Position numbers and translations under genes: made by a program. This document shows, one piece after another, positions 837-56,207 of a stretch of DNA of 64,000 nt (positions are counted from its first letter, which is position 1; each line of letters starts with the position of its first letter). The notes beneath the pieces were generated by a model. The model was not told the DNA's origin and did no database searches. It worked only from the letters and a program-made list of their open reading frames with translations. The DNA comes from Yponomeuta sedellus (taxonomy: Eukaryota; Arthropoda; Insecta; Lepidoptera; Yponomeutidae): positions 17,997,693 to 18,061,692 of the forward strand of contig OW203743.1 of the NCBI GenBank assembly GCA_934045075.1, in the 5' to 3' direction.

Positions 837-1013
837 TTTTTTTTTTTTTTTCATTCTAAAGTCTTTTTGTTGGAATATGGGTATTATTTAGAGGCTCAGT
901 AGGATTAGTGTTGCAGGGAGAAGGTGGTCGACTTTGAGCCTGCTATTGGATACAGGCCCATTGCCGCCAAATATTTGTTACTCAGGAGTTAGGTTGGGTT
1001 ATTTCAGTTTGAT

Positions 1014-4000
1014 TTATGTGCCATTTATGTTCTTTAGTCGTTTAATTATGGTTTCTACGTGGTTAATGAAGTATTCTGTAGCTGTTTCGTGTTTGATTGT
1101 TGCTAATAGGTCGTAAGGTTCTTGTCTTATCATGTTGCAAAACATTTCGTATTTGGTTCTTGTTTTTTCAAATATCGGGCATTCTTTTAGTAGATGGTGA
1201 GTATTTTGAGTGGTATTGTTATCACATGGGCATTGGTCGTTGTCTATTATTTTGAATTTGTGGAGGTAAGATTTATGGTATCCATGTCCGGTGAGAATTT
1301 GGGTGAGTGAGAAGGACGGTTTTACTGTTTTACGGAACTCTGTTATTTGATGGATATTTTTAAAGTAATGTCCGTTGCCCCTTGAGGAGCCGATTCGTAC
1401 TCCTTTTGCCATGCTGTGAGTGTGCGTTGTTTGAGGAGGCGCTTGACGTAAGATAGTGGGCAAACATTCATCTCCGAGGCTGTCTTTTTGAGTGCCGCTG
1501 CCTTGGCTGCAGCGTCCGCGGATTCATTGCCCTCTATACCCACGTGTGCTTTTGTCCACGCAAAGTTGGTGGATCTGTTGTTTGTGATCAGATGGAAAAG
1601 GCTGTTATGGATCTGATTTACTATGGGATCTGTATTACTTCGGTCTTGTATGGCTTTTAAGGAGGAGAGGGAGTCAGTGAAGATGGTGGCCGAGGAGTAA
1701 TTCGTGTTGCAGAGCCACTCCAAGGCTTTAGCTATAGCTAGCAATTCGCACATGAAGACTGTGGCGGTGCGGCAAAGTTTAAATTTTTTAGTTATATTAT
1801 GGTTCTGGCCTGGCAGTGTAACGACAAATGAGGCTCCCGTTTCGCCTGTTTCCTGCTTGCTGCCGTCCGTATAAATGCTAGGGTTATTCGGGTCTGACAA
1901 GGCATCAGTTTCTTCTTGGTTTGTCGCTATTTCGTATTTTATAGTGACACGTTTTGCCGGGTGTAGGAGGCTAGATATTTTTACTCTTTTGTGGAGCCTT
2001 ATATCACCAGGTAGATCCGGACATATGCCTGACTTCTTGGTATGGTAGGTTTCACTTGTTTCATCTACTACCAGGTGCAGAGGTGGAAATTGGGCCAGCG
2101 CTTCCGCAGCCACAGCTGAGATTGTGTGAAATCCTCGGATTGCTCTGATGGCGAACACTCTCTGGAAGGATCTGAGGGCTCGGCGGACGGAGTAGAACCT
2201 AGTAGCAGTGCCCCAGATTCCGGCCGCATATGTGATTGTGGGCACTACAACCTGTCTATAGATACACTCCACGTTCTCCGAGTGTACGCCCCAAGTTGGT
2301 CTGACAAACTTGCAGAGGTTTTTAAAGAGTTTTGTCGCTTTCTTGATGACATAATGTACGTGCTGGATAAAATTTAGTTTATTGTCTATGATAACTCCTA
2401 GCAGTTTTATCTGATCAGAGAGAGGAATTATAACGCTGCCCATTAGTAGTACAGCGCGCCGGGATTGTGCGGTAAATGCAATTGCTTGGGTCTTTTCCGG
2501 GCTGAACGTCAATTTCACTCTCTCGCTCCAGGCACCAATATCGCGGAGGCAGGTTGCGGCTATAGCCTCTACCTCCTCTCTGGTCTTGGCCTCGATCGTC
2601 AGCAGCACATCGTCCGCGAAGGCTTGTATGTGAGCGCCTTCTGGGAGCGGCAGTTCAAGGAGCTCGTCGAGTATTAGGTTCCAGAAAACTGGGCCACAGG
2701 CCGAGCCCTGAACGCATCCCTTGGTCATATTTTTGGACGCTGTGCTGCTGCCGTAGCACAGAGAAACTATTCTGTCGGTGAAGTAGCTTTTTATGAGCGT
2801 AAATATGTTACTCGGACATTTCACGTGCCTCAGTCGCTCAAAGAGTGCAGGCCACCAGGCGTTGTCGAAGGCTGCTTTGATGTCCAGAGATATCGCTACC
2901 ACTTGCCGGCCCGCAGATTTGGCTGTCTTGATGACACTGAGGGCGTTGTCAAGAGCGTCTACAGTCGATGTTTGCTCTCTAAATCCGTACTGGGCACTAC
3001 TCAGAGTGTTTTCGGTTTCTGCCTTGTGGATTATCCGCTTGATCATCAGCTTTTCCAGAATTTTACCGAGAACTGAGATTAGGCCGATCGGTCTGTACGA
3101 GCTGAGGGCTTCCATGTCGGTTTTATTGGGTTTAGGGAGGATTTTCACTATGGCCTTCTTCCATGATCTTGGGAAATACCCAGTTTTTAAACATCTGTTA
3201 TATATTGCAGTCAGGAGTTCCGGTTGCGCCTCAAACAACTCTCGGCAAATGTCTGAGGTCAGGTGGTCATCCCCTGGTGCCTTTTTTGGATTTGTCTGAC
3301 CGAAGCACTCGCGGATCTCCTCGACTGTGAAGGGCAGATCTTCTTCAGTTTCTGGGGAGGTGGTCATTTTCATTCGTAGGTGGCGATGGTGGTCATGTGT
3401 GTCGGGTGTGTCGTCGGGGTAAAAGTGTTTGAGCAGTGTCGTTGCGGTGTCATAGCATGAGTTGGTGTAAGTGTCCTCGCTCTTTAGGGTTTGAGGTGGT
3501 TTCCTAGGAGGTGCCTCTTTGATGATGCGGTTTGTGACTGCCCAGACGTCTTCTTTACCCTGCGCCTCGCAAAACTGTCTGAAGTGATCTGTAGACGTTT
3601 TTGAGATCGATTTGGCATACTCGAGTTTCGCTAGCCGGTACGCTTCCAGGACTTCATCGAGGGGTCTATTCGACTTCTTGAGGTCGTGGAGTCGATGGTG
3701 GAGTTTGATGCATTCCTTCTTCTGTTGCTCCAGAGCATCGGACCACCAGGGGTTGTAGTGTTTAGCGCCCGGCCTGGGACGGAATACTTTACTGCAGATG
3801 TCCTGTGTAGTACTGGTCAATTGGCCTACCATGCGGTCCAGCTCAGCATCAGAGAGTATGTCGATATTTGTTTGTTCCGCGAGTGGTTGCAGGGCGACGG
3901 TCAGTGCCATGCGGAATTCGGGCCAGTTGGCTCGGAAGGTGGAGTATTTGAAGGTGGTGTTACTCTTGATCCTCTCCGGCCTACGTGGAGTCTCCAGCTG

Positions 4001-4669
4001 GAATTCAACTGCGTTGTGGTCGGAGGTGGGGCAGGCTTCTCGGTTAACGCGCCAGCTACTCACGGCGTCGACGAGATTCTGGGATGCATATGTGACGTCA
4101 ACTATTGACGAGCAGTGGGCTCCATGTCTGATGGCCTCGAACGTCGGCTCGCTGCCACAGTTGCACCCCACCAAATCATTAGACGCCATAAGTGCCGCGA
4201 ACTCGTCACCCCGAGAGTCCGACTTGGCCGTGCCCCACTCCTGGTGGGCCCCGTTAACATCACCGCCTAGTAACCGCAGTGATGATCCGGCAGATTGTAG
4301 GAGGACATGTACTTTGTCTATCGTATGGTCGTTGTCGGTGTCTGGTTCTATATAAAAGGAGGCTACGTCCATGCTCCTGGGGCCCAGATTGATGCGGATG
4401 ACTGCCAAGTTCGCGGTTGATAATTGTGTGATACCGAGGGCGGCTATTGTAGATTTGGTGGCGATGCAGGCCTTGACGCGCAACCCTTTGGAGAACTGAT
4501 AAATGTTTAGGCCTGGTGGTGCTTTCATCTCGAGAGTAGAGCCAACGTAGGGCTCTGAGATGAGGGCTATGTCGTAGTTGTTTTTGTTGAAATATGTGAA
4601 GAATTCCTGTTGCGATACATAACTACGCTGTACATTGCATTGGATGATTTTGAGAGAGCTAGTAACCAT
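1014..4669 (-). pseudogene. ORF2: endonuclease-RT-RNase H polyprotein, one frameshift
   Basis: This would nick target DNA and reverse-transcribe the element RNA there. An APE-type endonuclease starts the frame (IIQCNVQ, LISEPY, GGDVNGAH near residue 136, TSDHNAVEF). The reverse transcriptase follows, with YRPIGLISVLGKILEK, YGFREQTSTVDAL, SLDIKAAFD and FADD near residue 685. RNase H has YTDGSK (about 930), ELLAIAKALEW, TDSLSSLKAI and AHVGIEGNESAD (about 1040). The first frame is open from 4669 to 1343. The C-terminal zinc-binding part (LTQILTGHG, then C-x-C-x9-H-x4-C) continues in another frame to the stop at 1014. The frame change lies near 1375-1400, beside a CCCC run, and a single-base indel would explain it. 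Without it the protein would be about 1,220 residues. The ATG overlaps the end of ORF1 by 11 nt. Confidence 0.85.
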
Positions 4670-6146
4670 AATCTGTATTTTCTTCGAGGGATTTGATGGC
4701 TTTAATTATTTTGGGGCATTTATGAGAATCTAGAGCAGAGTGGTTTGTGACAGCGTTTTTGGATTGGATGCAGTTGTAACAGGACTTCTTAGTTTCGTCA
4801 GATTTGACCGGACAAGAGGTCATGTGGTGCGAGGTGGAGCCGCAGTGGGCGCACGGGTAGAAGTCAGCAGTGCATTTGTTGTTAGTGTGCCCGAATTGCA
4901 GGCACTTGTAGCACTGCACGAAGCGGCTGAAGTCCGCCACGTGCACCCTCTGGTGCTCCACGTTAGCTCGCTCCGCATCCACCAACGCACGTCGTACAGT
5001 GGGAGCCACTTCTATGACTGCGTTATATAGGTGTTCGTTACGGTTTTTCAGCAGGAAGCACAATCGGATGTCTTCGTTCGCGATTTGGTTTTGCTGGCTC
5101 AGGATCTGTATTAGGTCGTCGCGGTGGACGTCCTTGCTGACGCCTTTTAAGATAAGGAGTGGGCGACGGAGCCTGGACTCTTCCGCCATGATGTTCGGCA
5201 CGTCGTTGACCTTTTTGATGGTTTCATCGCGTTGCTGGATAGTTTCGAAATCGACTTTGACCATATTGTTTTTCAAGGATCGGACTTTAGATGGCGCAAA
5301 AGTAGTGTCACGGAATGAGACGTTCTTGCGCCATTCCTCATACACATCGGACTGCCTATCGCCGGACTGCTTGCTTCTGACGATGATTGATGGGAGCGTG
5401 CGTGTGCGTAATGGTGGTTGCTTCGGGGGCGGAGCGGATACCGCTGCAGCGTACGATCTGGTTGGGAGTGCAGGTGGTGGGGGCGAGGCATTCTTGATTT
5501 CCCTGAGCTCTTCGCGGATGGTGTCCCTGATGGTGGAGAGTATGCTCTCGCTGCTCTCACTTCTTGGGACCGACGTGCTTGGGGGCTCGATTGTGGACGG
5601 GATCGTGGGCAATTTCATGAGCGCTTGGGTGGCCCTCTGGATCTCCAGGGTAGCGGCGGCGATCAGTTTTTTGTTCAGAGTTGTTACACTCTTGCCCTCG
5701 TTTACCGCGCCGTTTATGGCTTCTGAGAGCTTGTTCACGGTCGCCACAAACGAGTCCAGGCTAGTCACATCCGCAGCGAGCGCTGGCAACTCAGGTGTAG
5801 TGGTTGCATTTCGCTTGACGGGCTTCGCCGACTTGCCCTTAGGCGCCACAGGTGGTGAAAGCGCTTGAACGGGTTGAGTTGTAAGGGGATTAGGGCTAAG
5901 TTGGGTGAAGGGGACAAGGGAAGACGCCAGATCGAGCAGCGGGGCAGTATGCGCCTCGAGTGATAACGAAACCGGGGACGCTACGGGGGGCTGAGCAACA
6001 TTAGAAGCGGCGGCGCCTCCAGAATCCGACGCAGTACCAGAGCCAGGCGGAACCGAAATGGCGCGGTAGGCTCTAGTAGTCGCTGGAAGCGGTGGTGATG
6101 ACGTAGCATCCACCCCCTTTCTAGGGGGCGAGCGAGAGAGCACCAT
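4659..6146 (-). CDS. ORF1: gag-like nucleic-acid-binding protein of RNase H LINE
   Basis: A 495-residue protein that should coat element RNA in a ribonucleoprotein particle. The N-terminal third is low-complexity, rich in Ser, Pro and Ala. Residues near 340-400 look like the gag RNA-binding domain that precedes the zinc knuckles in R1/jockey ORF1s (ILKGVSKDV, IQILSQQN, then a VRRAL/VEHQRVHV segment). Three cysteine-histidine clusters end the protein between about residues 410 and 475: CYKCLQFGHTNNKC, CAHCGSTSHHMTSC and a looser CYNC...HKC. The last codons overlap the ORF2 start in a different frame, which implies reinitiation or a frameshift for ORF2 translation. The frame is intact, unlike ORF2. 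Confidence 0.85.
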   Translation of the reverse strand: MVLSRSPPRKGVDATSSPPLPATTRAYRAISVPPGSGTASDSGGAAASNVAQPPVASPVSLSLEAHTAPLLDLASSLVPFTQLSPNPLTTQPVQALSPPVAPKGKSAKPVKRNATTTPELPALAADVTSLDSFVATVNKLSEAINGAVNEGKSVTTLNKKLIAAATLEIQRATQALMKLPTIPSTIEPPSTSVPRSESSESILSTIRDTIREELREIKNASPPPPALPTRSYAAAVSAPPPKQPPLRTRTLPSIIVRSKQSGDRQSDVYEEWRKNVSFRDTTFAPSKVRSLKNNMVKVDFETIQQRDETIKKVNDVPNIMAEESRLRRPLLILKGVSKDVHRDDLIQILSQQNQIANEDIRLCFLLKNRNEHLYNAVIEVAPTVRRALVDAERANVEHQRVHVADFSRFVQCYKCLQFGHTNNKCTADFYPCAHCGSTSHHMTSCPVKSDETKKSCYNCIQSKNAVTNHSALDSHKCPKIIKAIKSLEENTDYGY

Positions 6147-6516
6147 TTGGGGAAAATCAGAGTTTTAACGGTTTTTTAGATAACTATAAGAGCTATTTTT
6201 TCCCCTTTTGCAGATTCGCGAAGCGCGGGGGCGGCTCCGGACACCAACTGAGCTGTTCTGAGCTGAGCAAAAATGGGACGATTGCCCGGTGCGAACCGTG
6301 GCAGTTAAAACGGGTTTGAGGGGGAATTTAAGGATTTATTTAAGAAAATGTGTGTTTTTAGTAGGAAAATCGTAGTTTTAACGGTTTTTTTTTTAAGAAA
6401 ACTATTAGAGCTAAATCTTTTCTTTTTGCAGATTCGCGAAGCCGGCGACGAGACGCGTCCAACGAGGTGCGGCAAGAGTAGGTGGGAGCAAAAACTAAAA
6501 TGAGTTTATACGTGGT
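6147..6516 (-). promoter_or_regulatory. 5' UTR of RNase H LINE with an internal tandem repeat
   Basis: A segment at about 6151-6220 recurs at about 6366-6441 (period near 215 bp). Both contain GTTTTAACGGTTTTTT, an AACTAT-AGAGCTA stretch and TTTTGCAGATTCGCGAAG on the + strand. Tandem 5' UTR units in LINEs often carry promoter activity; that is an inference here. The 5' terminus is placed at 6514-6517 where TTAGG begins. Confidence 0.55.
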
Positions 6517-6520
6517 TAGG

Positions 6521-15912: not shown

Positions 15913-16953
15913 TTTTTTTTTTTTTTTTTTTTTTGGTAACGCGGGGGAATGCATTTACGCACTTCACCACTCTGCTGTCAGGGGACAACAGAGCGGCTTC
16001 GTGTGGGACTCCCAGCCCAAGGGCTGGACTACCCACTAAACCCCCGCGGTGATCCTCATCTCCTCTACCGGGTCGCGGGGTAGGCCAAAGGTTAAGTCAC
16101 CGCGACCCGGCAAGAGGTCGCCCCACTGGAGGGGCTCGACTGGTGGGGGAGCCAGAGTGGCTCCCCAGCGGCGCCCCCTGCCCCATCGCAACGACGGAGC
16201 AAGGGAACGCCGCGTCTCCTCAGGGGGGCCATATAGGCCCCCATACGCTCCAATGCGCCGCCCCCCCCCATCCCATTGCTAAAACAATGGGACTAGAGGG
16301 GGCGGCGCATCGCTGCGAGGCCCGTCGCGTCGCTCACCAGCGCTTCTCTGAGAACAGAGAAGGTGGAGAGCGAGCGCGCGGGCCCTCTCTGTGCTGGAAG
16401 GCACCCCCGGATCACGCAGGGGCGCCCTCCGGCCCGCCGTGTTAGAGGCGGAGAGTCCCCTGACCCCCCGCCCACGGCACTGATCCGACTGGTACGAGGC
16501 GCCCGGAGGCGCCCCCCCCAGCCGGACCTCCTCCTCCTGGTCGCTTGGGTCCCACTCCACGGTGTGAAGCAGGGCCCAAGCGACCAAACGGTCGCAGGGG
16601 ACAGGGAGAGAGGCGCACCGCAATACCAGCACTCCTCTTCCCCTGCGACCCCACCGCGTCCGCCATCAACCGGTGGCGGCCCCGGTAAGGCCGCGGCAGG
16701 CAGGGAGAGCGGCGCACCGTAATACCGGCACTCCTCTCCCGCCGCGGCCTCCTCCCTTCGGCTGCGATGCCGCCCATACGACATCGCAGCCCGCCTCAGT
16801 GGCGGTGCTGCCCATACAGCACCGCCACCTACTGACCGCTCAACTCGCAAGCGAGGAGCGGTCCCTCCGCGGTTGCTCTTTGTTTCACCGTGGTCCCGCA
16901 ACCACGGCTACTAAAGCCCCCTCGCCACGACAAGGCGGCAACCGTCGAGGGGG
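15913..16953 (-). mobile_element. Short telomeric retroposon, copy 5 (mosaic: long body, short-subtype ribozyme)
   Basis: Complete copy with poly(T) 15913-15934. It has both 61-nt modules like the long subtype, but its ribozyme has the CAAA motif and GCGGG P4 loop of the short subtype, so the two subtypes have exchanged segments. Non-coding. Confidence 0.85.
16871..16953 (-). ncRNA. HDV-like ribozyme, short copy 5
   Basis: Mapped in detail on the minus strand. P1 CCCCCTC is 16953-16947 and pairs with 16923-16917. J1/2 is GAC. P2 GGTTGC (16943-16938) pairs with 16876-16871. P3 is GCC/GGC with loop TTGTCGT. P4 CCGTGGT (16907-16901) pairs with ACCACGG (16894-16888). The CNRA motif is CAAA with the putative catalytic C at 16882. 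Confidence 0.7.
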
Positions 16954-16998
16954 AGGTTAGGTTAAGTTAGGTTAGGTTAGGTTAGGTTAGGTTAGGTT
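16954..16998. repeat. Telomeric repeat tract
   Basis: About nine units, one of them the TTAAG variant, between minus copy 5 and plus element F. Confidence 0.95.
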
Positions 16999-16999
16999 T

Positions 17000-17164
17000 G
17001 GGGTGCGATGCCAGATTACCTTCCCGTGTGCCCTTCCGCTTCCGTTCCTACTGATTCATTTTTGAACCAGTAGGAAGGGTAAGTGGCAAGGGCCGGTGCA
17101 CCCTGGGCGCTGGTCAGTAACTTCTCTTTATGGGATCTTGCTGGCCAGCGGCGAAAAATCTGGC
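17000..17164 (+). ncRNA. HDV-like self-cleaving ribozyme at 5' end of element F
   Basis: All parts of the HDV-like double pseudoknot are visible. P1 GGGGTGC (17000-17006) pairs with GCACCCT (17098-17104). P2 GCCAGATT (17010-17017) pairs with AATCTGGC (17157-17164). P3 is ACC/GGT (17018-17020, 17095-17097). J1/4 is GGG (17105-17107) and can form P1.1 with CC of loop L3. P4 CGCTGGTCAG (17108-17117) pairs with CTGGCCAGCG (17141-17150) with one G-U. J4/2 contains CGAA at 17152-17155, with C17152 as the putative catalytic base. L3 is enlarged by an inserted stem (GCCCTT/AAGGGC, then CCTACTG/CAGTAGG). P1 begins where the telomere repeat ends. Confidence 0.82.
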
Positions 17165-17775
17165 GGGAGGGGTCGCGTGGGCCCTGTTTCACTTTGTGGA
17201 GCGGGACCCAGGCGACCAACCGAATGAAGGACCGACTGGGGGGGGCGCCGCTGCGCGGAAGCGCGCGCGCCTCGTACCAGTCGGACCAGAGTGGCCGCCG
17301 GGACGCGGAGGGTCGGGGGACTCTCCGCGTCCATCACGGCGGGCCGGAAGGCGCCCTTGCGTGTTCCGAGGGTGCCTTCTGGCACGGAGGGGGCCCGCGC
17401 GGTCGCTCACCGCCTTCTCTGCTTTCAGAGAAGTGCTGGTGGGCGACGTGACGGGCCTCACGTGTGGGGCGTGTGGGGACCGGGACGCTTGGGCCCCCAC
17501 GCGCCTCAACGAGGAGGTGCGCCGCCCTCCCCGTCTCATCGACCGGCTTGCGATGGGATGGAGGGGGCGGCGCGTTGGGGCGTATGGGGGCCAAGATCAT
17601 ACGCACTTGGCCCCTATGCGCTCCAACGAAGAGATGCGGCGTTTTCTAGCCCCGTCGTCGAGCACCGACGGGGCAGAAGCGCCGCCGAAGGAGTGCCCGA
17701 AAGGGCGCCCGCAGACGGGGTCGCGGAAGTGTGCGCAAGCGTTCCCGTGGCCCCGTCCTTTGCGGTGCGGAGGAA

Positions 17776-17885
17776 CACCCCAGGAGTTTTAGTCGGTATA
17801 CCGCCCTTTTCAGGGCGGGGAGTCCGACATAACCACTGTGCTCCCCCGAGCCGGTGGTACCCGTAATTGGGGTTTCTCCTGGGTG
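17776..17885 (+). promoter_or_regulatory. 3' terminal RNA fold of element F
   Basis: A closing stem CACCCCAGGAG/CTCCTGGGTG (one bulge) lies directly before poly(A). It encloses hairpin 1 GTCGG/CCGAC (with inner CCGCCC/GGGCGG), hairpin 2 ACCAC/GTGGT (with inner GCTC/GAGC) and hairpin 3 ACCC/GGGT. The TTTTAGT motif precedes hairpin 1, as in families A to D. Confidence 0.7.
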
Positions 17886-17947
<62 letters not shown>

Positions 17948-17949
<2 letters not shown>

Positions 17950-17960
17950 TTAGGTTAGGT
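17948..17960. repeat. Telomeric repeat tract
   Basis: Two to three units between the poly(A) of F and the poly(T) of short copy 6: two elements inserted tail to tail. Confidence 0.9.
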
Positions 17961-19011
17961 TTTTTTTTTTTTTTTTGGTTACGCGGGGGAATGCATTTAC
18001 GCACTTCACCACTCTGCTGTCAGGGGACAACAGAGCGGCTTCGTGTGGGACTCCCAGCCCGAGGGCTGGACTACCCACTAAACCCCCGCGGTGATCCTCC
18101 TCTCCTCTACCGGGTCGCGGGGTAGGCCAAAGGTTAAGTCACCGCGACCCGGCAAGAGGTCGCCCCTCCACGTGAGGGGCTCGACTAGTGGGGGAGCCAA
18201 AGTGGCTCCCCAGCGGCGCCCCCTGCCCCATCGCTACGACGGGGCAAGGAAACGCCGCGTCTCCTCGGGGGGGCCATAAAGGCCCCCATACGCTCCAATG
18301 CGCCGCCCCCCCACATCACATTGCTAAAACAATGGGACTAGAGGGGGCGGCGCATCGCTGCGAGGCCCGTCGCGTCGCTCACCAGCGCTTCTCTGAGAAC
18401 AGAGAAGGTGGAGAGCGAGCGCGCGGGCCCTCTCTGTGCCGGAAGGCACCCCCGGATCACGCAGGGGCGCCTTCCGGCCCGCCGTGTTAGAGGCGGAGAG
18501 TCCCCTGACCCCCCGCCCACGGCACTGATCCGACTGGTACGAGGCGCCCGGAGGCACCCCCCCCAGCCGGACCTCCTCCTCTTGGTCGCTTGGGTCCCAC
18601 TCCACGGTGTGAAGCAGGGCCCAAGCGACTAAACGGTCGCAGGGGACAGGGAGAGAGGCGCACCGCAATACCAGCACTCCTCTTCCCCTGCGACCCCACC
18701 GCGTCCGCCATCAACCGGTGGCGGCCCCGGTAAGGCCGCGTCAGGCAGGGAGAGCGGCGCACCGTAATACCGGCACTCCTCTCCCGCCGCGGCCTCCTCC
18801 TTACGGCTGCGATGCCGCCCATACGACATCGCAGCCCGCCTCAGTGGCGGTGCTGCCCATACAGCACCGCCACCTACTGACCGCTCGACTCGCAAGCGAG
18901 GAGCGGTCCCTCCGCGGTTGCTCTTGGTTTCACCGTGGGTGTGTTCCCGCCCGTAGGCCCCCACGGCTACTTAGCCCCCTCGCCACGACAAGGCGGCAAC
19001 CGTCGAGGGGG
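17961..19011 (-). mobile_element. Short telomeric retroposon, copy 6 (long subtype)
   Basis: Complete copy with poly(T) 17961-17976 and both 61-nt modules. The P4 loop of its ribozyme is longer (GGGGGCCTACGGGCGGGAAC), as in copies 7 and 8. Non-coding. Confidence 0.85.
18916..19011 (-). ncRNA. HDV-like ribozyme, short copy 6
   Basis: P1 CCCCCTC/GAGGGGG, P2 GGTTGC/GCAACC, CNRA motif CCAA. P4 is CCGTGGG/CCCACGG, a paired change from CCGTGGT/ACCACGG of copies 2, 4, 5 and 9. Confidence 0.68.
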
Positions 19012-19047
19012 AGGTTAGGTTAGGTTAGGTTAGGTTAGGTTAGGTTA
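19012..19047. repeat. Telomeric repeat tract
   Basis: About seven perfect units. On the right, GGTTA joins GTCTTCCGTG of family B. Confidence 0.95.
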
Positions 19048-19498
19048 GTCTTCCGTGTGGAGTTTCTGGTCTCCCATCGGACGCGTCCCCAGGTGGCGGA
19101 TAGGGGAACGCCCTCCAGATATGGGGGGTACCGGCTTCGGCCGGCGCGGACCAAAACCAGGTGGTGGGGACATCCAGTGGCAGCCTGCTGCTGGAGGTCC
19201 GGCGGGGTCCAATTCGGACTCTGCACTTGGCGGCGGGCTCGGTATGTGCGCTTGCGCAGTTACCGGGCAGGCTTCGGCCACCGTCGGCAAACCCGGAACC
19301 CCACATTGAGTGGCCCGGGGGCTTTCGGGCTGCGAGGAGAAAACCTCTATAAAAATCCCCAATCCCAAGCTTAGACGCCCGGCGATGGGATGCATGGCTG
19401 GTGGGTGACCAGTCGTGAGGGCGTCCTTATCCGTCCGCCGTAGAGCGGGCGTGTTTTGACGGGTCTGCGCTCCACCCAAAGGAGCGCAAAAAAGCATT
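19048..19498 (+). promoter_or_regulatory. 5' UTR of family B
   Basis: Aligns with the family A 5' UTR at 14608-15053 and 62271-62715. It contains GGCTTCGGCC-type hairpins and a CTATAAAAATCCCC block at about 19347. Internal promoter expected from LINE biology; none is proven by the sequence. Confidence 0.65.
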
Positions 19499-27268: not shown

Positions 27269-27629
27269 CGTCCCCCTTCCTCTCGCTCCATGGTGATGAG
27301 CAGCGGGCGACAGGTGCGGGGGCGCCCTCGCCCGCATTGCACCGCTCATCACCGAGCCGTACGAGGATGACCGAGCACCCACGGTTGTCCTCGGACCCCT
27401 CCCCGTAAAGGGCGGGGCGCGTCGGGCCCGCCGTGCCTAGGCGGGCAATCGCCGGCGGGGGACTGGAAGTAAAGGCTGTGCCGGTTTCCCAGACCCCCGC
27501 CACTAAAGGCGACGAGGGGTGCCGCTGGGTTGTTTAGTGGGTATACCGGGAACCGCTTTCCCGGGGAGTCCCACATACTCTCTCCCGTCCCCCGACGGGG
27601 GGGAGATGCGTAACGCATTTTTCCCAGCG
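27269..27629 (+). promoter_or_regulatory. Family B 3' UTR with the shared terminal fold
   Basis: A long stem GGTGATGAGC/GCTCATCACC starts the UTR near 27292. The terminal fold is 27523-27629: closing stem CGCTGGG/CCCAGCG; hairpin 1 GTGGG/CCCAC with inner CCGGGAA/TTCCCGG; hairpin 2 CCCGTC/GACGGG; hairpin 3 ATGCG-TAA-CGCAT. Poly(A) follows at once. Confidence 0.72.
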
Positions 27630-33559: not shown

Positions 33560-34647
33560 GTCTTGCGCCTGAATGACGAAGTGTCGGTCGGCGCCGTGTC
33601 TAGTGTCCCTGACACGGCGGTCGGCAAGATAGAGGGATGAAAGTGATTTCATGAATGAGGATTAATTTATGGGGCGGCGGGCACCAGCCGCGCCGCCCGC
33701 GCACGCGAGGAGTGCGTGAGTAAATGTGATGGATGAACGGTGCAGAGGTCGTGCTGAATCTGGAGTTGTGATCTGGGTAGCATGACCGGCACATAAGACG
33801 AGGAGAGGGATGGCGCTCAGGTCGTGCCTGCTGGCTGGCGCGGAGCGCTCGTCACTGACCTGCGACCCGCGTCTAGTACGGTACGATCAGCGACAGAAGA
33901 AGAATGAATGGCTCGTTATACATGCCGGACCGCGGGCCGGGCGTTACCACGCGCTTGCCCCGCGATCCGAATGGTGTGCCGAGCAGATATACCAGGTGAT
34001 GGATGAGTGGTGCTCGGATCGTGCTAGATCGACGTGGAGCGGGCGCCACCACACGTGCGACCCACGATCGTAACTGGTGCGACCGTCACATAAGACGAGG
34101 AGAGGGATGGCGCTCAGATCGTGCCTTCCGGCTGGCGCGGAGCGCTCGTCACTGACCTGCGACCCGCGTCTAGTACGGTACGATCAGTGACAGAAGATGA
34201 ATGAATGGCTCGTTATACATGCCAGACCGCGGGCCGGGCGTCACCACGCGCTTGCCCCGCGATCGGAATGGTGTGCCGAGCAGAAATACAAGGTGATGGA
34301 AGAGTGGTGCTAGGTACGTGCTAGATCGACGTGGAGCGGGCGCCACCACACGTGCGACCCACGATCGTAACTGGTGCGACCAGCACAACAAACAAGATAT
34401 GATGGATGCTATGATGAAGAGAATGGGGGTAGCGGAGCGCCTATGGCTCCTCCACCGCTACCCTATGCGGAAACGCAAAAGGTGGGGACGGGGTCGCCAG
34501 CCGAGTTGCGGAGGTGTCTTTGCGAATCACGTAGCTCGGTGTGAATGGCGAGAGACGGAACACCGGAGGGGTTTTAGTGGGTGCAAGCCCCACATAACCC
34601 GGCGTTTTCCCCGAGACGCCGGGTATCTGTCAGAGATTTCCCCTCCG
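33560..34647 (+). promoter_or_regulatory. Family C 3' UTR (copy 1): duplicated 297-bp block and terminal fold
   Basis: A hairpin CGCCGTGTC/GACACGGCG lies near 33592-33622. A block of about 297 bp is present twice, about 33784-34080 and 34081-34377 (CATAAGACGAGGAGAGG recurs at exactly 297 bp), followed by a short third start. The terminal fold is 34564-34647: closing stem CGGAGGGG/CCCCTCCG, hairpin 1 GTGGG/CCCAC, hairpin 2 ACCCGGCGT/ACGCCGGGT (9 bp) and hairpin 3 ATCT/AGAT. Confidence 0.75.
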
Positions 34648-40588: not shown

Positions 40589-41676
40589 GTCTTGCGCCTG
40601 AATGACGAAGTGTCGGTCGGCGCCGTGTCTAGTGTCCCTGACACGGCGGTCGGCAAGATAGAGGGATGAAAGTGATTTCATGAATGAGGATTAATTTATG
40701 GGGCGGCGGGCACCAGCCGCGCCGCCCGCGCACGCGAGGAGTGCGTGAGTAAATGTGATGGATGAACGGTGCAGAGGTCGTGCTGAATCTGGAGTTGTGA
40801 TCTGGGTAGCATGACCGGCACATAAGACGAGGAGAGGGATGGCGCTCAGGTCGTGCCTGCTGGCTGGCGCGGAGCGCTCGTCACTGACCTGCGACCCGCG
40901 TCTAGTACGGTACGATCAGCGACAGAAGAAGAATGAATGGCTCGTTATACATGCCGGACCGCGGGCCGGGCGTTACCACGCGCTTGCCCCGCGATCCGGA
41001 TGGTGTGCCGAGCAGATATACCAGGTGATGGATGAGTGGTGCTCGGATCGTGCTAGATCGACGTGGAGCGGGCGCCACCACACGTGCGACCCACGATCGT
41101 AACTGGTGCGACCGTCACATAAGACGAGGAGAGGGATGGCGCTCAGATCGTGCCTTCCGGCTGGCGCGGAGCGCTCGTCACTGACCTGCGACCCGCGTCT
41201 AGTACGGTACGATCAGTGACAGAAGATGAATGAATGGCTCGTTATACATGCCAGACCGCGGGCCGGGCGTCACCACGCGCTTGCCCCGCGATCGGAATGG
41301 TGTGCCGAGCAGAAATACAAGGTGATGGAAGAGTGGTGCTAGGTACGTGCTAGATCGACGTGGAGCGGGCGCCACCACACGTGCGACCCACGATCGTAAC
41401 TGGTGCGACCAGCACAACAAACAAGATATGATGGATGCTATGATGAAGAGAATGGGGGTAGCGGAGCGCCTATGGCTCCTCCACCGCTACCCTATGCGGA
41501 AACGCAAAAGGTGGGGACGGGGTCGCCAGCCGAGTTGCGGAGGTGTCTTTGCGAATCACGTAGCTCGGTGTGAATGGCGAGAGACGGAACACCGGAGGGG
41601 TTTTAGTGGGTGCAAGCCCCACATAACCCGGCGTTTTCCCCGAGACGCCGGGTATCTGTCAGAGATTTCCCCTCCG
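40589..41676 (+). promoter_or_regulatory. Family C 3' UTR (copy 2)
   Basis: Same parts as copy 1: 297-bp duplication at about 40813-41406 and terminal fold 41593-41676, identical in stems. Confidence 0.75.
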
Positions 41677-44599: not shown

Positions 44600-45687
44600 G
44601 TCTTGCGCCTGAATGACGAAGTGTCGGTCGGCGCCGTGTCTAGTGTCCCTGACACGGCGGTCGGCAAGATAGAGGGATGAAAGTGATTTCATGAATGAGG
44701 ATTAATTTATGGGGCGGCGGGCACCAGCCGCGCCGCCCGCGCACGCGAGGAGTGCGTGAGTAAATGTGATGGATGAACGGTGCAGAGGTCGTGCTGAATC
44801 TGGAGTTGTGATCTGGGTAGCATGACCGGCACATAAGACGAGGAGAGGGATGGCGCTCAGGTCGTGCCTGCTGGCTGGCGCGGAGCGCTCGTCACTGACC
44901 TGCGACCCGCGTCTAGTACGGTACGATCAGCGACAGAAGAAGAATGAATGGCTCGTTATACATGCCGGACCGCGGGCCGGGCGTTACCACGCGCTTGCCC
45001 CGCGATCCGAATGGTGTGCCGAGCAGATATACCAGGTGATGGATGAGTGGTGCTCGGATCGTGCTAGATCGACGTGGAGCGGGCGCCACCACACGTGCGA
45101 CCCACGATCGTAACTGGTGCGACCGTCACATAAGACGAGGAGAGGGATGGCGCTCAGATCGTGCCTTCCGGCTGGCGCGGAGCGCTCGTCACTGACCTGC
45201 GACCCGCGTCTAGTACGGTACGATCAGTGACAGAAGATGAATGAATGGCTCGTTATACATGCCAGACCGCAGGCCGGGCGTCACCACGCGCTTGCCCCGC
45301 GATCGGAATGGTGTGCCGAGCAGAAACACAAGGTGATGGAAGAGTGGTGCTAGGTACGTGCTAGATCGACGTGGAGCGGGCGCCACCACACGTGCGACCC
45401 ACGATCGTAACTGGTGCGACCAGCACAACAAACAAGATATGATGGATGCTATGATGAAGAGAATGGGGGTAGCGGAGCGCCTATGGCTCCTCCACCGCTA
45501 CCCTATGCGGAAACGCAAAAGGTGGGGACGGGGTCGCCAGCCGAGTTGCGGAGGTGTCTTTGCGAATCACGTAGCTCGGTGTGAATGGCGAGAGACGGAA
45601 CACCGGAGGGGTTTTAGTGGGTGCAAGCCCCACATAACCCGGCGTTTTCCCCGAGACGCCGGGTATCTGTCAGAGATTTCCCCTCCG

Positions 45688-50898: not shown

Positions 50899-51331
50899 TT
50901 TTTTTTTTTTTTGGTTACGCGGGGGAATGCATTTACGCACTTCGGCGCCCTGTTGCCGGGGGACAACAAGGCGCCTTTGTGTGGGACTCCCAGCCCGGAG
51001 GCTGGACTACCCACTAAACCCCCGCGGTGTTCCTCCTCTACTCTACCGGGTCACGGGATATGCCAGAGGTTAAGTCACCGTGACCCGGCGAGAGGGCGTC
51101 CCATAGGACTCTCCTTGTGAGGGGGGGCCGCACGGACCCCCCCTGCGCTATGAAAGCGTCGACTTGCCCGCACGCCCGCCCCCCGGGGCTCCTCTGTATT
51201 CAGAGGAGGCCGTGGGCGGGCGCGCGGGCACCCTATGTTTTGCCGGAAGGCACCCCGGAACACGCGAAGGCGCCTTCCGGCTCGCCGTGATGGTGGGCGT
51301 GGGGTCCCCCGACCCTCCGCCCACGGCCGCT

Positions 51332-54300
51332 CTAGTCGGGGGCGCGCGCATATCCCGCGCGGCGCCGCCCCCTATTTGGACGACGGGGCGGGAGCGTGAG
51401 CCCTGCCCGCTCCCGTTCCCGCAGCTCCTCTCGTTTGGCCGCCATCACCTCGCTAGCGAACAAGGCGACGGCGGCCCAACTCTCTTGGCTGCCGGCCATT
51501 TGCGGGATAATGGCCGGCAGCGACAGGTCGGCCCCCACAACGGCCATGAGGGAGGTCCGCTGCGCGCTCCAGGCGGAGCACACAGCTAGCGTGTGCTCCG
51601 CCGTATCCTCCTCGTTGGACGCGCAGTACCGGCACTCGGGGCCCGACTCTATCCCTACCACCTCCCACAGGTACTTGGCAAAGCAGCCGTGACCTGTGAG
51701 GAGTTGGGTCAGGTGATAGGTCGGCGCCCCGTGCGCCCGCTCCACCCATGGCCGCAAGACCGGCCGGACCGCCTCCACGAGTCTCCGACACGCGGAGGGG
51801 TCCTCCAACCTGAGGGCCCACCTGCGGAAGAGATCGTCGCGAGCCTCCTGCCTCCAACGTACGATCTCTGCCGGGGTGGGCCACCCTCCACTGTTCCGCA
51901 TCAGGGCACCCTGCCTGTACACCTCCTCGAGGACTCCCGCCTCGAGGTCCCAGGGGAGACTCGCCGCTAATAAACACGCCGCCTCGTAGGAGACGGTGTG
52001 ATACGCTCTTGCAGCCCTCTGCGCTATTACCCGTTGCGGGCGGCGCAACAAAGCTATGTTGCTAGCGCAGAGGGCCTCCGCCCATATGGGCGCTCCATAC
52101 AGTGCTTTGGAGCGCACCACACCGTCGTAGAGGCGGCGACAAGCGCTCCCCGGACCACCGCTGTTAGGCAGCAACCTCGCGAGCCTCCCGGCATACGACA
52201 CCAGCTTTGGCGTCAGCTGCCGGAAGTGCTCGCGGAAACTCCACCGACTGTCGAGGACCAGTCCCAGGTACTTCATGGTACCCCCGACAGCGATGGAGGC
52301 GCCACCAACGGTGATCTCGGAACCTCGAGGCGGCCTCATCCGAGGCCCATAAAAGAAGATGGCCTCGGACTTCTCGAGGGCGACCGTGAGCCCTAGTGCC
52401 CTGATGCGGCGCACGACCTGCGCTACTCCCGCCGTAGCCAGGACCTTGGCGTCCCGGAAAGTGGGTCCTCGCGCGGTGACCAGGGTGTCGTCGGCGTAAC
52501 AGAGTACGCCGACTCCCCGAAGAGTGGTACCGCGCAGGACCCAGTCGTACCCGACGTTCCACAGGAGCGGCCCGAGCACCGACCCCTGTGGAACACCACA
52601 GGACATCTCCCTGCGGACCACCTCCGACCGGGACGGGTAACACACGGCCCGGTCTACGAAGTAGTCCGCAAGGACCCGCCTGAGGTACCACGGCACTTCG
52701 TGGTACCCCAGGGCCTCCGCTATGGCCTGCCAGGGGAGGGTATTGAAGGCGTTGGAGATGTCTAAAGAGACGGCCAACAACACCTCCCCCCGGCCAGTCA
52801 CCTCCACGACGCTGTCTCTGAGACGGGAGATGGCGTCCAACGTCGATCTCCCGCGACGGAAGCCGAATTGGTCGCCGCTCAAGTTGGGCCCCGCCCCCTC
52901 CAGGTGCCGGACGAGACGCGCAGCGAGCACCCGCTCGAAAAGCTTGCACGTCTCGTCCAACAAAACGATGGGGCGGTAGGCCGACGGCGACTCCATCGGC
53001 CGCCCGTGCTTCCGTAGCAGCACGAGCCTGCCCTCCTTCCACCGTCGCGGGACCCTTCCCGACGCCAAAGACTCCGTCATCAAAGACAGCGTCGCCTCCC
53101 CGAAAGCCGGCATGACGGCGGCGATGACCCGCCCAGGGACGCCGTCCGGACCCGGGGCGCGGTTCCTAAGCTTCATCTTAAGAACCGCTACCCCTAACTC
53201 GGCTTCGGACACGGGCGGGACATCATGGTCCTCCACTGGCGCCGGCAAAGCCGCCATCTGCGGCGGGACCCACTCTTCCGCCTGTGCGGGGAAGAGGGTG
53301 CGGACCACCAAGTCGGCGAAGGCCGGCTCGAGCGACCGGGTGAGTGGGGGCGCCCAAGGCTTCAGCTTTTCGCATACCACCTTATACGGACGCCCCCACG
53401 GGTCCAGGTCGAGGGTCTCCAGCCACTCGACCCAGGCCGTCTCCTTGGCGGCCCTGATCCCCGCACAGAGCGCGGCTCGGGCCGCTCGGTAAGCGACGAG
53501 ATGCTCCTCTTCCTGGGCGAGGTCTCTGCCCCGACGCCTGCGGTAGCGGGTGTACGTCCGCTGAGCTGCGTGGCAAGCGGCGCGCAACCCCGCCAGGTGC
53601 GGTTGCCACCAGTACACCCGCCTCCGCGGCAGAGCAGGAACTCTCCGCCGCATCGCGGCATCGCAGACGCGAGACAGCGCCCCCGCAAGGCGGTCCGCCC
53701 CCGCGTCTACGTCCAGCACCTCGTCGCTTGACCCAGCGACCCATCGCTCCACGATAGCCGCCTCCCTGGCCGCATCCCTGTCCAGGGTGGCGAGCCGCCA
53801 CCGCGGGCCCTCCCCCGCCAGGGGACGGCTCAGGTCCGCCGGAGCACCGGTGGGGGCCGCAGCGATGCCGAACCACACATACCGGTGGTCCGACAAGGTC
53901 TCGACCCCCTCGGCGACCCTCCAGCCATGCGCGCGGTTTGCCAGGGCGGGACTGGCGAACGTCAGATCCACTATGGATCCGCCCTGGGACCGAACGCATG
54001 TCTGCACCGCCCCCCGGTTGAGCAGCACAAGCCCAGTGGACACCGCCCACTCCTCCAACACCTCCCCCCGCGGGTCAGTTGCCGGGTTCCCCCACGCCAT
54101 GGATTTGGCGTTGAAATCCCCGGCAACGACGGCGGGGGTGGGGTGCACGTCAGCCAACATTGCCCCGACTTCCACGAGCCATTGCTCGAAGTCGGCGAGG
54201 CTTCTGTTGGGCGAAAAGTACACCCCACACACTGCAATGTCTCCCAGTACGACGAGAACACAACCGTGCCCTCTCAGCACTCTGCTGTGACACAGAGCGC

Positions 54301-54484
54301 CGCACCGGGAGACAATTGCCACCGAACCGTCGCGATCGCCGACCCAGTCATCCCGGGTGCGGACGCAGTATGGTTCGGCGACAACGGCCAAGGTCGCCTG
54401 CCACTGCGCAGCGGTCTGGAGCAAGAGGTCCTGAGCCGCTGCACAGTGATTGACGTTGGCCTGCAGTATGCTGGTGTTGGCCAT
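51332..54484 (-). CDS. Family A ORF2 (copy 2)
   Basis: 1,050 residues, all endonuclease, reverse transcriptase (SLDISNAFN, CGVPQGSVLGP, CYADDTLV) and CCHC motifs intact. Differs from copy 1 at scattered positions, for example EEVYRQGALMRN for REVYERSALMRN. With no promoter or complete ORF1 in front, expression is unlikely unless driven from a neighbour. Confidence 0.9.
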   Translation of the reverse strand: MANTSILQANVNHCAAAQDLLLQTAAQWQATLAVVAEPYCVRTRDDWVGDRDGSVAIVSRCGALCHSRVLRGHGCVLVVLGDIAVCGVYFSPNRSLADFEQWLVEVGAMLADVHPTPAVVAGDFNAKSMAWGNPATDPRGEVLEEWAVSTGLVLLNRGAVQTCVRSQGGSIVDLTFASPALANRAHGWRVAEGVETLSDHRYVWFGIAAAPTGAPADLSRPLAGEGPRWRLATLDRDAAREAAIVERWVAGSSDEVLDVDAGADRLAGALSRVCDAAMRRRVPALPRRRVYWWQPHLAGLRAACHAAQRTYTRYRRRRGRDLAQEEEHLVAYRAARAALCAGIRAAKETAWVEWLETLDLDPWGRPYKVVCEKLKPWAPPLTRSLEPAFADLVVRTLFPAQAEEWVPPQMAALPAPVEDHDVPPVSEAELGVAVLKMKLRNRAPGPDGVPGRVIAAVMPAFGEATLSLMTESLASGRVPRRWKEGRLVLLRKHGRPMESPSAYRPIVLLDETCKLFERVLAARLVRHLEGAGPNLSGDQFGFRRGRSTLDAISRLRDSVVEVTGRGEVLLAVSLDISNAFNTLPWQAIAEALGYHEVPWYLRRVLADYFVDRAVCYPSRSEVVRREMSCGVPQGSVLGPLLWNVGYDWVLRGTTLRGVGVLCYADDTLVTARGPTFRDAKVLATAGVAQVVRRIRALGLTVALEKSEAIFFYGPRMRPPRGSEITVGGASIAVGGTMKYLGLVLDSRWSFREHFRQLTPKLVSYAGRLARLLPNSGGPGSACRRLYDGVVRSKALYGAPIWAEALCASNIALLRRPQRVIAQRAARAYHTVSYEAACLLAASLPWDLEAGVLEEVYRQGALMRNSGGWPTPAEIVRWRQEARDDLFRRWALRLEDPSACRRLVEAVRPVLRPWVERAHGAPTYHLTQLLTGHGCFAKYLWEVVGIESGPECRYCASNEEDTAEHTLAVCSAWSAQRTSLMAVVGADLSLPAIIPQMAGSQESWAAVALFASEVMAAKREELRERERAGLTLPPRRPNRGRRRAGYARAPD

Positions 54485-55377
54485 CTACGCTTGGGCGGTG
54501 TCCATCTCCTGCGTTGGCACTCGGGGTGCTACAGGAGGCTGGCTACTGTTGCCGCCACCTGTTTTCCCACGGCCGCCTCGGCCGCCCTTTTTTGGGGCTC
54601 CCGCCGAACACCCCTTGGCGCCCAGGCGGTGGGCAGATGCCACCCCTTTCGCCGCGCACGCTGGGCAGTGGGCCTCAGCCACGCACCCCGCGGACTTGTG
54701 GCCGGGTTGACCGCAGCGGAAACACAGTCCGCTGCGATCCGCGGTGCACGCGCACTTTGCTCCGACGTGGCCCGGCTCGAGGCAGCGGAAGCAACGCTGC
54801 GGCCTGGGCGCGAGGAGGGTGGCTCGGACTTGAGTCCACCCCACGGTTAGGCGCCGGCCATCCGTCACCTTTCGTGCAGCCGCGATGGGGCACTTGACCC
54901 ACACGGCTCCCTCGCGCCCAGGCGGTCGGACAACCGCGCCCACCTTAACGTTGGTGGCGGCGCAGTCTCCGACCTCCGCCACCATCGCCGCCACCCTCTC
55001 CGGCGTAGTGGCGTCGCTCAGACCGGTGATGCGCAACTCGACGCATCTCTCTGGCCTGGCGACGCGGACCTCCTCACCGAGCGCCTCCCTCAGCCTCTCG
55101 GCAAGGGCGTCAGCTTTCCGGTCTCGCTCGGCACCGGCCACCTCGAGGATTTTGCCCCCAGTGGCCGCCGTCCGGAACCGTAGGCCGTCAATCCCGAGGC
55201 CTTTGAGGTCGATTGACCTTTCAGCCTCGGTCAAGACGGCCGCGTAGGTCACGCCCTTCTCCGCGGCCTCACTCTGCAGAGTGAGGACCACGGCGGCGCT
55301 GCGGGGGGCGCGGAGCCTCTTTTTTCTCTTTTTGGAGGCTGGAGGAGGGGCCTTAGTCGCCTTTGTTGGCGCCGGCG
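54485..55377 (-). pseudogene. Family A ORF1 (copy 2), C-terminal fragment
   Basis: The last 297 or so codons remain, ending TAG directly before the ORF2 ATG. The retained part holds the gag domain (VLTLQSEAAEKGVTY) and three knuckles (CFRCLEPGHVGAKC, CFRCGQPGHKSAGC, CPACAAKGVASAH). The frame is open through to the truncation. Confidence 0.88.
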
Positions 55378-55380
55378 AGG

Positions 55381-56207
55381 TTTATTTATTTTTGGTAACG
55401 CGGGGGAATGCATTTACGCACTTCACCACTCTGCTGTCAGGGGACAACAGAGCGGCTTCGTGTGGGACTCCCAGCCCGAGGGCTGGACTACCCACTAAAC
55501 CCCCGCGGTGATCCTCCTCTCCTCTACCGGGTCGCGGGGTAGGCCAAAGGTTAAGTCACCGCGACCCGGCAAGAGGTCGCCCCTCCACGTGCGGGGCTCG
55601 ACTAGTGGGGGAGCCAAAGTGGCTCCCCAGCGGCGCCCCCTGCCCCATCGCTACGACGGGGCAAGGAAACGCCGCGTCTCCTCGGGGGGGCCATAAGGGC
55701 CCCCATACGCTCCAATGCGCCGCCCCCCCACATCACATTGCTAAAACAATGGGACTAGAGGGGGCGGCGCATCGCTGCGAGGCCCGTCGCGTCGCTCACC
55801 AGCGCTTCTCTGAGAACAGAGAAGGTGGAGAGCGAGCGTGCGGGCCCTCTCTGTGCCGGAAGGCACCCCCGGATCACGCAGGGGCGCCTTCCGGCCCGCC
55901 GTGTTAGAGGCGGAGAGTCCCCTGACCCCCCGCCCACGGCACTGATCCGACTGGTACGAGGCGCCCGGAGGCGCCCCCCCCAGCCGGACCTCCTCCTCTT
56001 GGTCGCTTGGGTCCCACTCCACGGTGTGAAGCAGGGCCCAAGCGACTAAACGGTCGCGGTGCTGCCCAAACAGCACCGCCACCTACTGACCGCTCAACTC
56101 GCAAGCGAGGAGCGGTCCCTCCGCGGTTGCTCTTTGTTTCACCGTGGTCCCGCAACCACGGCTACTAAAGCCCCCTCGCCACGACAAGGCGGCAACCGTC
56201 GAGGGGG
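55381..56207 (-). mobile_element. Short telomeric retroposon, copy 9 (short subtype)
   Basis: Complete copy with 5' end at 56207. Its tail is not pure: 55381-55393 reads as A/T-rich (TTTATTTATTTTT on the + strand), unlike the homopolymer tails elsewhere. It lacks the 61-nt modules. Non-coding. Confidence 0.85.
56125..56207 (-). ncRNA. HDV-like ribozyme, short copy 9
   Basis: P1 56207-56201, P2' 56130-56125, P4 CCGTGGT/ACCACGG, CNRA motif CAAA. Confidence 0.68.

Follow-up and report, generated by a model that had tools for sequence, protein, structure and literature searches.

How LINE and SINE-like RNAs of telomere arrays acquire precise 5' ends is the question raised by this locus. The window, that is, the whole 64,000-nt stretch of DNA analyzed here, is the final 64 kb of contig C24 in a host genome of 657.5 Mb and 57 contigs, and it represents an insect-type (TTAGG)n chromosome end crowded with non-LTR elements in both orientations. 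One of these, the plus-strand element F (17000-17947), consists of an 886-bp body (17000-17885) and a tail of 62 A residues (17886-17947), with telomeric repeats on either side. The (TTAGG)n array 5' of F occupies 16954-16998; its last 15 nt (16984-16998) recur in the 3' flank (17947-17961) as a putative target-site duplication, the exact length of which is unreadable inside the repeat. Positions 17172-17459 of the body are approximately 80% identical to minus-strand short elements (S) of the same window, and a 3' hairpin spans 17792-17828, where GUCGG (17792-17796) pairs with CCGAC (17824-17828) around an inner stem (17801-17806 with 17813-17818). No ORF of at least 250 amino acids was found in the 886 bp and A tail of F, which therefore contains no EN-RT frame. 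This lack, together with a ribozyme-type 5' end and a LINE-type 3' end, characterizes a SIDE, and F is best explained as a telomeric SIDE, a short retroposon that targets telomeres and is not autonomous.

The first nucleotides of F (17000-17164, plus strand) fold into the nested double pseudoknot of an HDV-like ribozyme, in the order P1-P2-P3-L3-P3'-P1'-J-P4-J4/2-P2', with self-cleavage predicted between 16999 and 17000. P1 comprises 7 bp, of which the first is G.U (GGGGUGC, 17000-17006, with GCACCCU, 17098-17104). P2 comprises 8 bp (GCCAGAUU, 17010-17017, with AAUCUGGC, 17157-17164), extendable by U17009.G17165, and P3 comprises 3 bp (ACC, 17018-17020, with GGU, 17095-17097), which are invariant in the alignment described below (A1). 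L3 begins with the core U-N-C-N-C-G (17021-17026), so that U17021 and G17026 are spaced like U20 and G25, whose pair is regarded as a signature of this ribozyme class (PMC3386971). P1.1 is formed by two pairs, U17022-G17106 and C17023-G17105, between L3 and the P1'-P4 joint, which reads GGG (17105-17107). P4 with its loop L4 (17108-17120 with 17138-17150) is followed by J4/2 (GCGAAA, 17151-17156), where C17152 is the equivalent of the catalytic C75. F thus shows the double pseudoknot, the C in J4/2, the U/G spacing of L3 and the P1.1 of the HDV-like class. The first-pass annotation of this DNA had listed P1 (7 bp), P2 (8 bp), P3 (3 bp), the GGG joint and CGAA in J4/2, and all of these pairings are present. 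Its P4 is present as well but has 13 pairs, one of them G.U, instead of 10, and the span that it gave to the ribozyme ends at 17164 as described but starts at 17000, not at 16999. Nor does P1 follow directly on the telomere repeat in this copy, since an extra T (16999), just 5' of the predicted cleavage site, separates the last GGTT from the first base of F (G1); among the copies compared, this T is present only in the window's own F copy (locus L009).

A loose HDV descriptor gave many matches in the G+C-rich window, and a strict descriptor (P1 ≥7, P2 ≥7, P3 of 3, P4 ≥6, C-N-R-A in J4/2 and a G in the P1'-P4 joint) was therefore adopted together with shuffled controls. The strict descriptor has a single match on both strands of the window, at 17000. 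In 100 dinucleotide-shuffled windows it matched 24 times, once with both P2 and P4 of at least 8 pairs and never with P2 ≥9 and P4 ≥10. Since this descriptor was set after F had been seen, the independent evidence lies in the conservation of the fold in relatives. Of 20,000 shuffled versions of the first 171 nt of F, examined with the fold anchored at the initial 7 nt, 3 folded, none of them with the U..G core. A covariance-model search had been proposed as a check: Rfam produced no HDV-like match in the window at the gathering threshold, nor in 16900-17300 or locus L041 at E ≤10. For search tools this means that the Rfam models overlooked the ribozyme in the stretches tested (window, 16900-17300 and L041).

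L3 of F is 74 nt long. It opens U-N-C-N-C-G-U-G-U and then forms a hairpin of approximately 64 nt (17030-17093), located 3' of the catalytic core nucleotides, with 3 unpaired nucleotides between the G25 equivalent and the hairpin. A long hairpin is folded by each of the 10 distinct L3 sequences in A1 (z from -4.8 to -8.8 against mononucleotide shuffles), and that of F has a z of -7.9 against dinucleotide shuffles; in the subtype of loci L039 and L016 its sequence is largely rebuilt. In a modelled post-cleavage structure, the nucleotide that follows G25 is reported to be bulged out (PMC3386971). Probably the hairpin is a peripheral domain that was inserted without disturbing the U-N-C-N-C-G core, and such an insertion would mean that the HDV active site tolerates more than is known so far.

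Copies of F abound in the host genome. A DNA search with 16990-17175 as the query returned 1182 first-look candidates, of which the best 40 were scored, all with 99-100% identity. The best 40 of 1393 candidates for 17600-17800 are all identical over the query, as are the best 40 of 501 candidates for a diverged subtype (L007). Unscored candidates are unproven as copies, so the copy number of F is given as a lower bound: it is at least in the scores and may possibly exceed a thousand. Diverged ribozymes were obtained from the flanks of scored loci and by a further search. The resulting alignment A1 contains 12 distinct ribozyme sequences of about four subtypes and 33 pairs, including P1.1. Pairing is present in 97.2% of its cells, compared with 24-44% when the partners are slid by 1-3 columns. 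Compensatory double changes occur at 8 of the 33 pairs (two in P2, five in P4 and one in P1.1), but on few branches of a single family, so they represent few evolutionary events, a kinship that the shuffle control ignores. In that control, none of 500 shuffles matched the observed pairing percentage, number of double-change cells or covariation score, and one equaled the observed number of double-change pairs. Further pair types number 12, against a shuffle mean of 15.3, and are equally or more numerous in all 500 shuffles. The innermost P2 pair is broken in 6 of the 12 rows, and the outer P2 pair is lost in L015. The first-pass annotation had suggested that homologues with unmaintained P1 or P2 pairs would speak against the ribozyme. 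P2 passes through compensation, whereas P1 never varies among intact copies; a search of the genomic copies for covariation in P1 found none, the only change being one replaced end. P3 is likewise constant, so neither P1 nor P3 is supported by covariation.

The covariance model built from A1 gave 80 full-length matches in 62 sources, besides 5 partial antisense hairpin matches, which were dropped. Two places occur twice, in the overlapping loci L019 and L066, and the matches thus reduce to 78 separate places, among which 25 different sequences occur. P1 is complete (7/7) at 77 of them, the exception (L051) having telomere repeat instead of P1. All 78 retain the equivalents of U20, G25 and C75 and the inner C-G pair of P1.1, and the outer P1.1 pair is UG at 45, CG at 25, UA at 8 and unpaired at none, although these copies are closely related and the counts accordingly represent few evolutionary events. 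Two scans of viral contigs found no relative. The conserved HDV-like fold in F is real.

The predicted cleavage point is also the genomic 5' end of F copies. Of 40 loci picked on 17600-17800 alone, 34 contain the start region and 6 do not (truncated or rearranged). The start is exactly at G1 in 33 of the 34, while L076 deviates in its first bases. The earlier claim of a complete fold with an expanded 74-nt L3 at the exact 5' end is supported. When every fetched locus is included, the upstream sequence runs straight into GGGGTGC in 64 of 65 distinct contexts. These junctions support the view that cleavage would set the exact 5' end of F.

F had been described as a telomeric element whose self-cleavage would fit RNA made by read-through of the array. 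Many copies, however, are found scattered at GGTTNNNNNAGG sites and flanked by 13-18 bp duplications; the target is thus not strictly telomeric, and read-through of telomere arrays cannot be the only source of F RNA. Duplications were surveyed in 34 F copies with a recognized 3' end. Fourteen are outside telomere repeats and have duplications of 13-18 bp, of which up to 3 bases perhaps belong to the A tail as well; one further copy (L028) has inserted into another F (15 bp), two are beside A runs (7), L056 has none, and the remainder are inside telomere repeats, where the length is unreadable. The nested copy (L028, minus strand, 584) was inserted at the telomere-F junction of the other F and duplicated AGGTTGGGGTGCGAT. 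The 49 contexts that have no plain telomere-repeat flank form 38 site clusters. In raw counts, AGG is located 14-18 nt upstream of G1, at the start of the duplication, in 36 of 38 clusters, and TT precedes that AGG by 4-8 bases in 31 of 38; when the telomere-like or nested clusters (L021, L028, L047 and L049) are set aside, the counts are 32 of 34 and 29 of 34. The target site of F is GGTTNNNNNAGG, which the telomere repeat also fits, and F thus appears to use a telomere-type endonuclease that cuts single look-alike sites too. Upstream of the ribozyme-bearing leader, L047 and L050 have (GGATA)n flanks instead of (GGTTA)n, a variant repeat that likewise harbors insertions.

The ribozyme is not special to the short element: the same type is found on three LINE types of the TRAS/SART kind. 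The first (L039, on contig C20) is a LINE of approximately 6 kb with a zf-CCHC domain (zinc knuckle) in ORF1; the second (L110, C1, the element of L003) has its ORF1 region split in two frames; and the third (L111, C54, the element of L055) has ORFs of 702 and 1025 amino acids. Pfam identified EN and RT in ORF2 of all three; the ENs of L039 and L111 were compared with the PDB, where both have TRAS1 as their closest relative. Each is inserted between T and A of (TTAGG)n, reading ...GGTT, the element with A(n), and GGTTAGG; the published site rule of SART places the insertion between TT and AGG (PMC7265360). The first 189-194 nt of F are 93-95% identical to the LINE leaders of L003, L055, L056 and L063, and about 70% identical (76% over 90 nt) to those of the L016/L039 type. 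ORF2 identity is 47-48% between L110 and either L039 or L111, and 69% between L039 and L111. The leaders of L110 and L111 are nevertheless each 93-95% identical to that of F over the ribozyme, which fits an exchange of 5' cassettes.

The same identities bear on a possible origin of F by internal deletion of a single LINE: against the 93-95% of the leader, the 3' tail reaches only 64-67% identity with any LINE over at least 73 nt, a 97% match at L039:1-58 lying in another F copy upstream of L039, and the body is shared with S. A 3' hairpin of the form GU(N)GG...CC(N')AC before the tail is common to F and other elements. Its variable pair is C-G in F, A-U in L039, G-C at 27629, 34647, 8597 and the S ends, and U-A at the 48714 end and in L111; a regular expression for the hairpin had no match in L110. 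Kept with compensation in F and LINEs, this hairpin is likely to be the handle for a LINE reverse transcriptase.

With P1 required to begin at the first base and the search covering 200 nt, five LINE leaders of the window (19047, 15053, 62715, 27699 and 34728) contain no HDV fold, nor do the first four when an offset of up to 7 and an L3 of up to 12 are allowed. Three of these belong to oppositely oriented LINEs (19047-19380, plus strand; 15053 and 62715, minus strand) whose 5' leaders (TTCCGTGTGGAGTTTCTGG...) are almost alike, a further sign of 5' module exchange. The leader motif GAGGAG..AACCTCTATAAAAA(A)TCC is located 3' of otherwise different 5' ends in L055, L056, L063, L003, L016/L039 and the window leaders 19047, 15053 and 62715. 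A different LINE (852-6520, minus strand) encodes RNase H in its ORF2, which is 24-28% identical to the other ORF2s compared. A repeated plus-strand LINE has a tandem duplication of approximately 297 bp 3' of ORF2 (33784-34387, 40813-41416 and 44824-45427).

A second, weaker HDV-like 5' fold is present on the minus-strand S of the window, one copy of which (fold at 16870-16953) abuts the same array as F. Here P1 is CCCCCUC/GAGGGGG, P2 CGGUUGC/GCAACCG and P3 GCC/GGC, with a 7-nt L3 (UUGUCGU). P1 of S starts at 801, 7349, 8472, 15899, 16953, 19011, 49793, 50870 and 56207, all on the minus strand in TRAS-like orientation, and J4/2 reads C, then A, C or U, then AA, varying among copies. With an anchored descriptor that includes the U..G core, each of the nine S ends tested is a match (P2 ≥7 for 16953, P2 ≥6 for the other eight), and shuffling the 16953 end 20,000 times produced no match. 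The case for a ribozyme is nevertheless weaker in S than in F, because P1 begins 6-18 nt inside the array junction at 801, 7349 and 8472, only one G-C pair would make up P1.1, a long distance separates the C from P4, and there is hardly any variation in P1 and P2. In a minus-strand chimera (50913-56207), an S copy with no long A tail leads, by way of a brief A-rich segment, into a LINE truncated at its 5' end, an arrangement that looks like template jumping by the reverse transcriptase. Slightly more likely than not is the reading that the HDV-like ribozyme with a hairpin domain in L3 is a mobile 5' cassette, exchanged among telomeric LINE lineages (ORF2 identity 47-69%) and acquired by a telomeric parasite present in many copies, and that a second ribozyme of the HDV-like class, compact in form, is borne by the oppositely oriented short elements of the same telomeres.

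The fold, its conservation in diverged copies, its coincidence with the 5' end and the presence of the module on three EN-RT LINE types, all computed, make it highly probable that the first ~165 nt of F are an HDV-like ribozyme like those described on telomere-specific SART LINEs, from which we infer self-cleavage. A chance fold in G+C-rich DNA might be suspected from the many loose-descriptor matches in the window, but this explanation is largely refuted by the compensatory conservation in diverged copies, the shuffles and the counts at 78 places, and its probability is negligible. It is very unlikely that the ribozyme was once active, lost its function through the L3 insertion and persists by descent alone. 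The insertion of approximately 64 nt does sit in the active-site loop, and descent alone keeps much, as the 99-100% identity of the best 40 of 1182 candidates attests; yet P2, P4 and P1.1 show compensation across diverged subtypes that all have the L3 hairpin, and the insertion spares the core, lying a few nucleotides after the G25 equivalent, where the modelled structure has the following nucleotide bulged out (PMC3386971).

Alternatively, Pol II could initiate transcription at the exact 5' end, a mechanism proposed for Bombyx TRAS1 and SART1, with the 5' fold serving translation or template binding rather than cleavage. Core promoters with a DPE have been reported for SART1 and TRAS1 (PMC4748587), and the plus-strand LINEs of the window at 19047, 27699 and 34728 begin AGTC beside the array with no HDV fold. 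We consider this improbable for F, since a transcription start leaves unexplained the catalytic C and the U..G of L3 at 78 of 78 places, the covarying P1.1 and a P1 pairing that begins exactly at the observed end, and since dispersed F copies with unrelated upstream DNA begin at the same base.

Under the self-cleavage reading, transcripts starting upstream would be cleaved 5' of G17000, C17152 assisting in the reaction. The F RNA set free in this way would be taken up by the EN-RT of an R1-clade telomeric LINE recognizing the 3' hairpin, and reverse transcription at a nick between GGTTNNNNN and AGG would yield full-length copies with duplications of approximately 15 bp. A ribozyme cassette common to long-ORF LINEs and their parasites would offer a direct and testable answer to how LINE and SINE-like RNAs of telomere arrays obtain precise 5' ends, and F is a good system in which to pursue it, with scores of near-identical copies whose 5' ends and target sites are mapped.

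The first-pass annotation had regarded an HDV-like ribozyme as unusual on a short telomeric retroposon with a stem in a 74-nt L3; HDV-like ribozymes are already reported on telomere-specific SART LINEs, with credit to Ruminski et al. 2011, according to PMC11620745. As described there, the SART ribozymes resemble that of F in having an HDV-like fold at the 5' end of a telomere-targeting element, and F has the orientation and site of SART (TT before AGG; PMC7265360); SART elements are LINEs, however, whereas F is short and non-autonomous. A literature search for SIDEs with a ribozyme and a telomere connection found only PMC3414825, which describes R2 and R2/R1 SIDEs of Drosophila, short elements with a 5' HDV-like ribozyme at rDNA, some with an R1-type 3' end. 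These share with F the non-autonomous state, the 5' ribozyme and the LINE-type 3' end, but by that account they target rDNA and have a large J1/2 loop, whereas F targets telomeres, has an L3 hairpin and shares its body with another short telomeric family. R2 ribozymes likewise have the double pseudoknot and catalytic C, and in some species cleave at the element junction (PMC3774820). According to the same source, many R2s need target sequence in P1, whereas P1 of F is wholly inside the element. R2 elements that cleave at their own end have variable junctions, whereas those of F are uniform. The Agam-2 ribozymes combine the core with a large peripheral hairpin domain, as F does, but their hairpin (P1.2) is in J1/2 (PMC4908430), whereas in F J1/2 has 2-3 nt and the hairpin is in L3. 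A hairpin of approximately 64 nt in L3 of an HDV-like ribozyme is apparently new, the published SART ribozymes being known here by description only. A telomeric short element with an HDV-like ribozyme also seems to be new, as does the spread of such a cassette across LINEs whose ORF2s are 47-69% identical.
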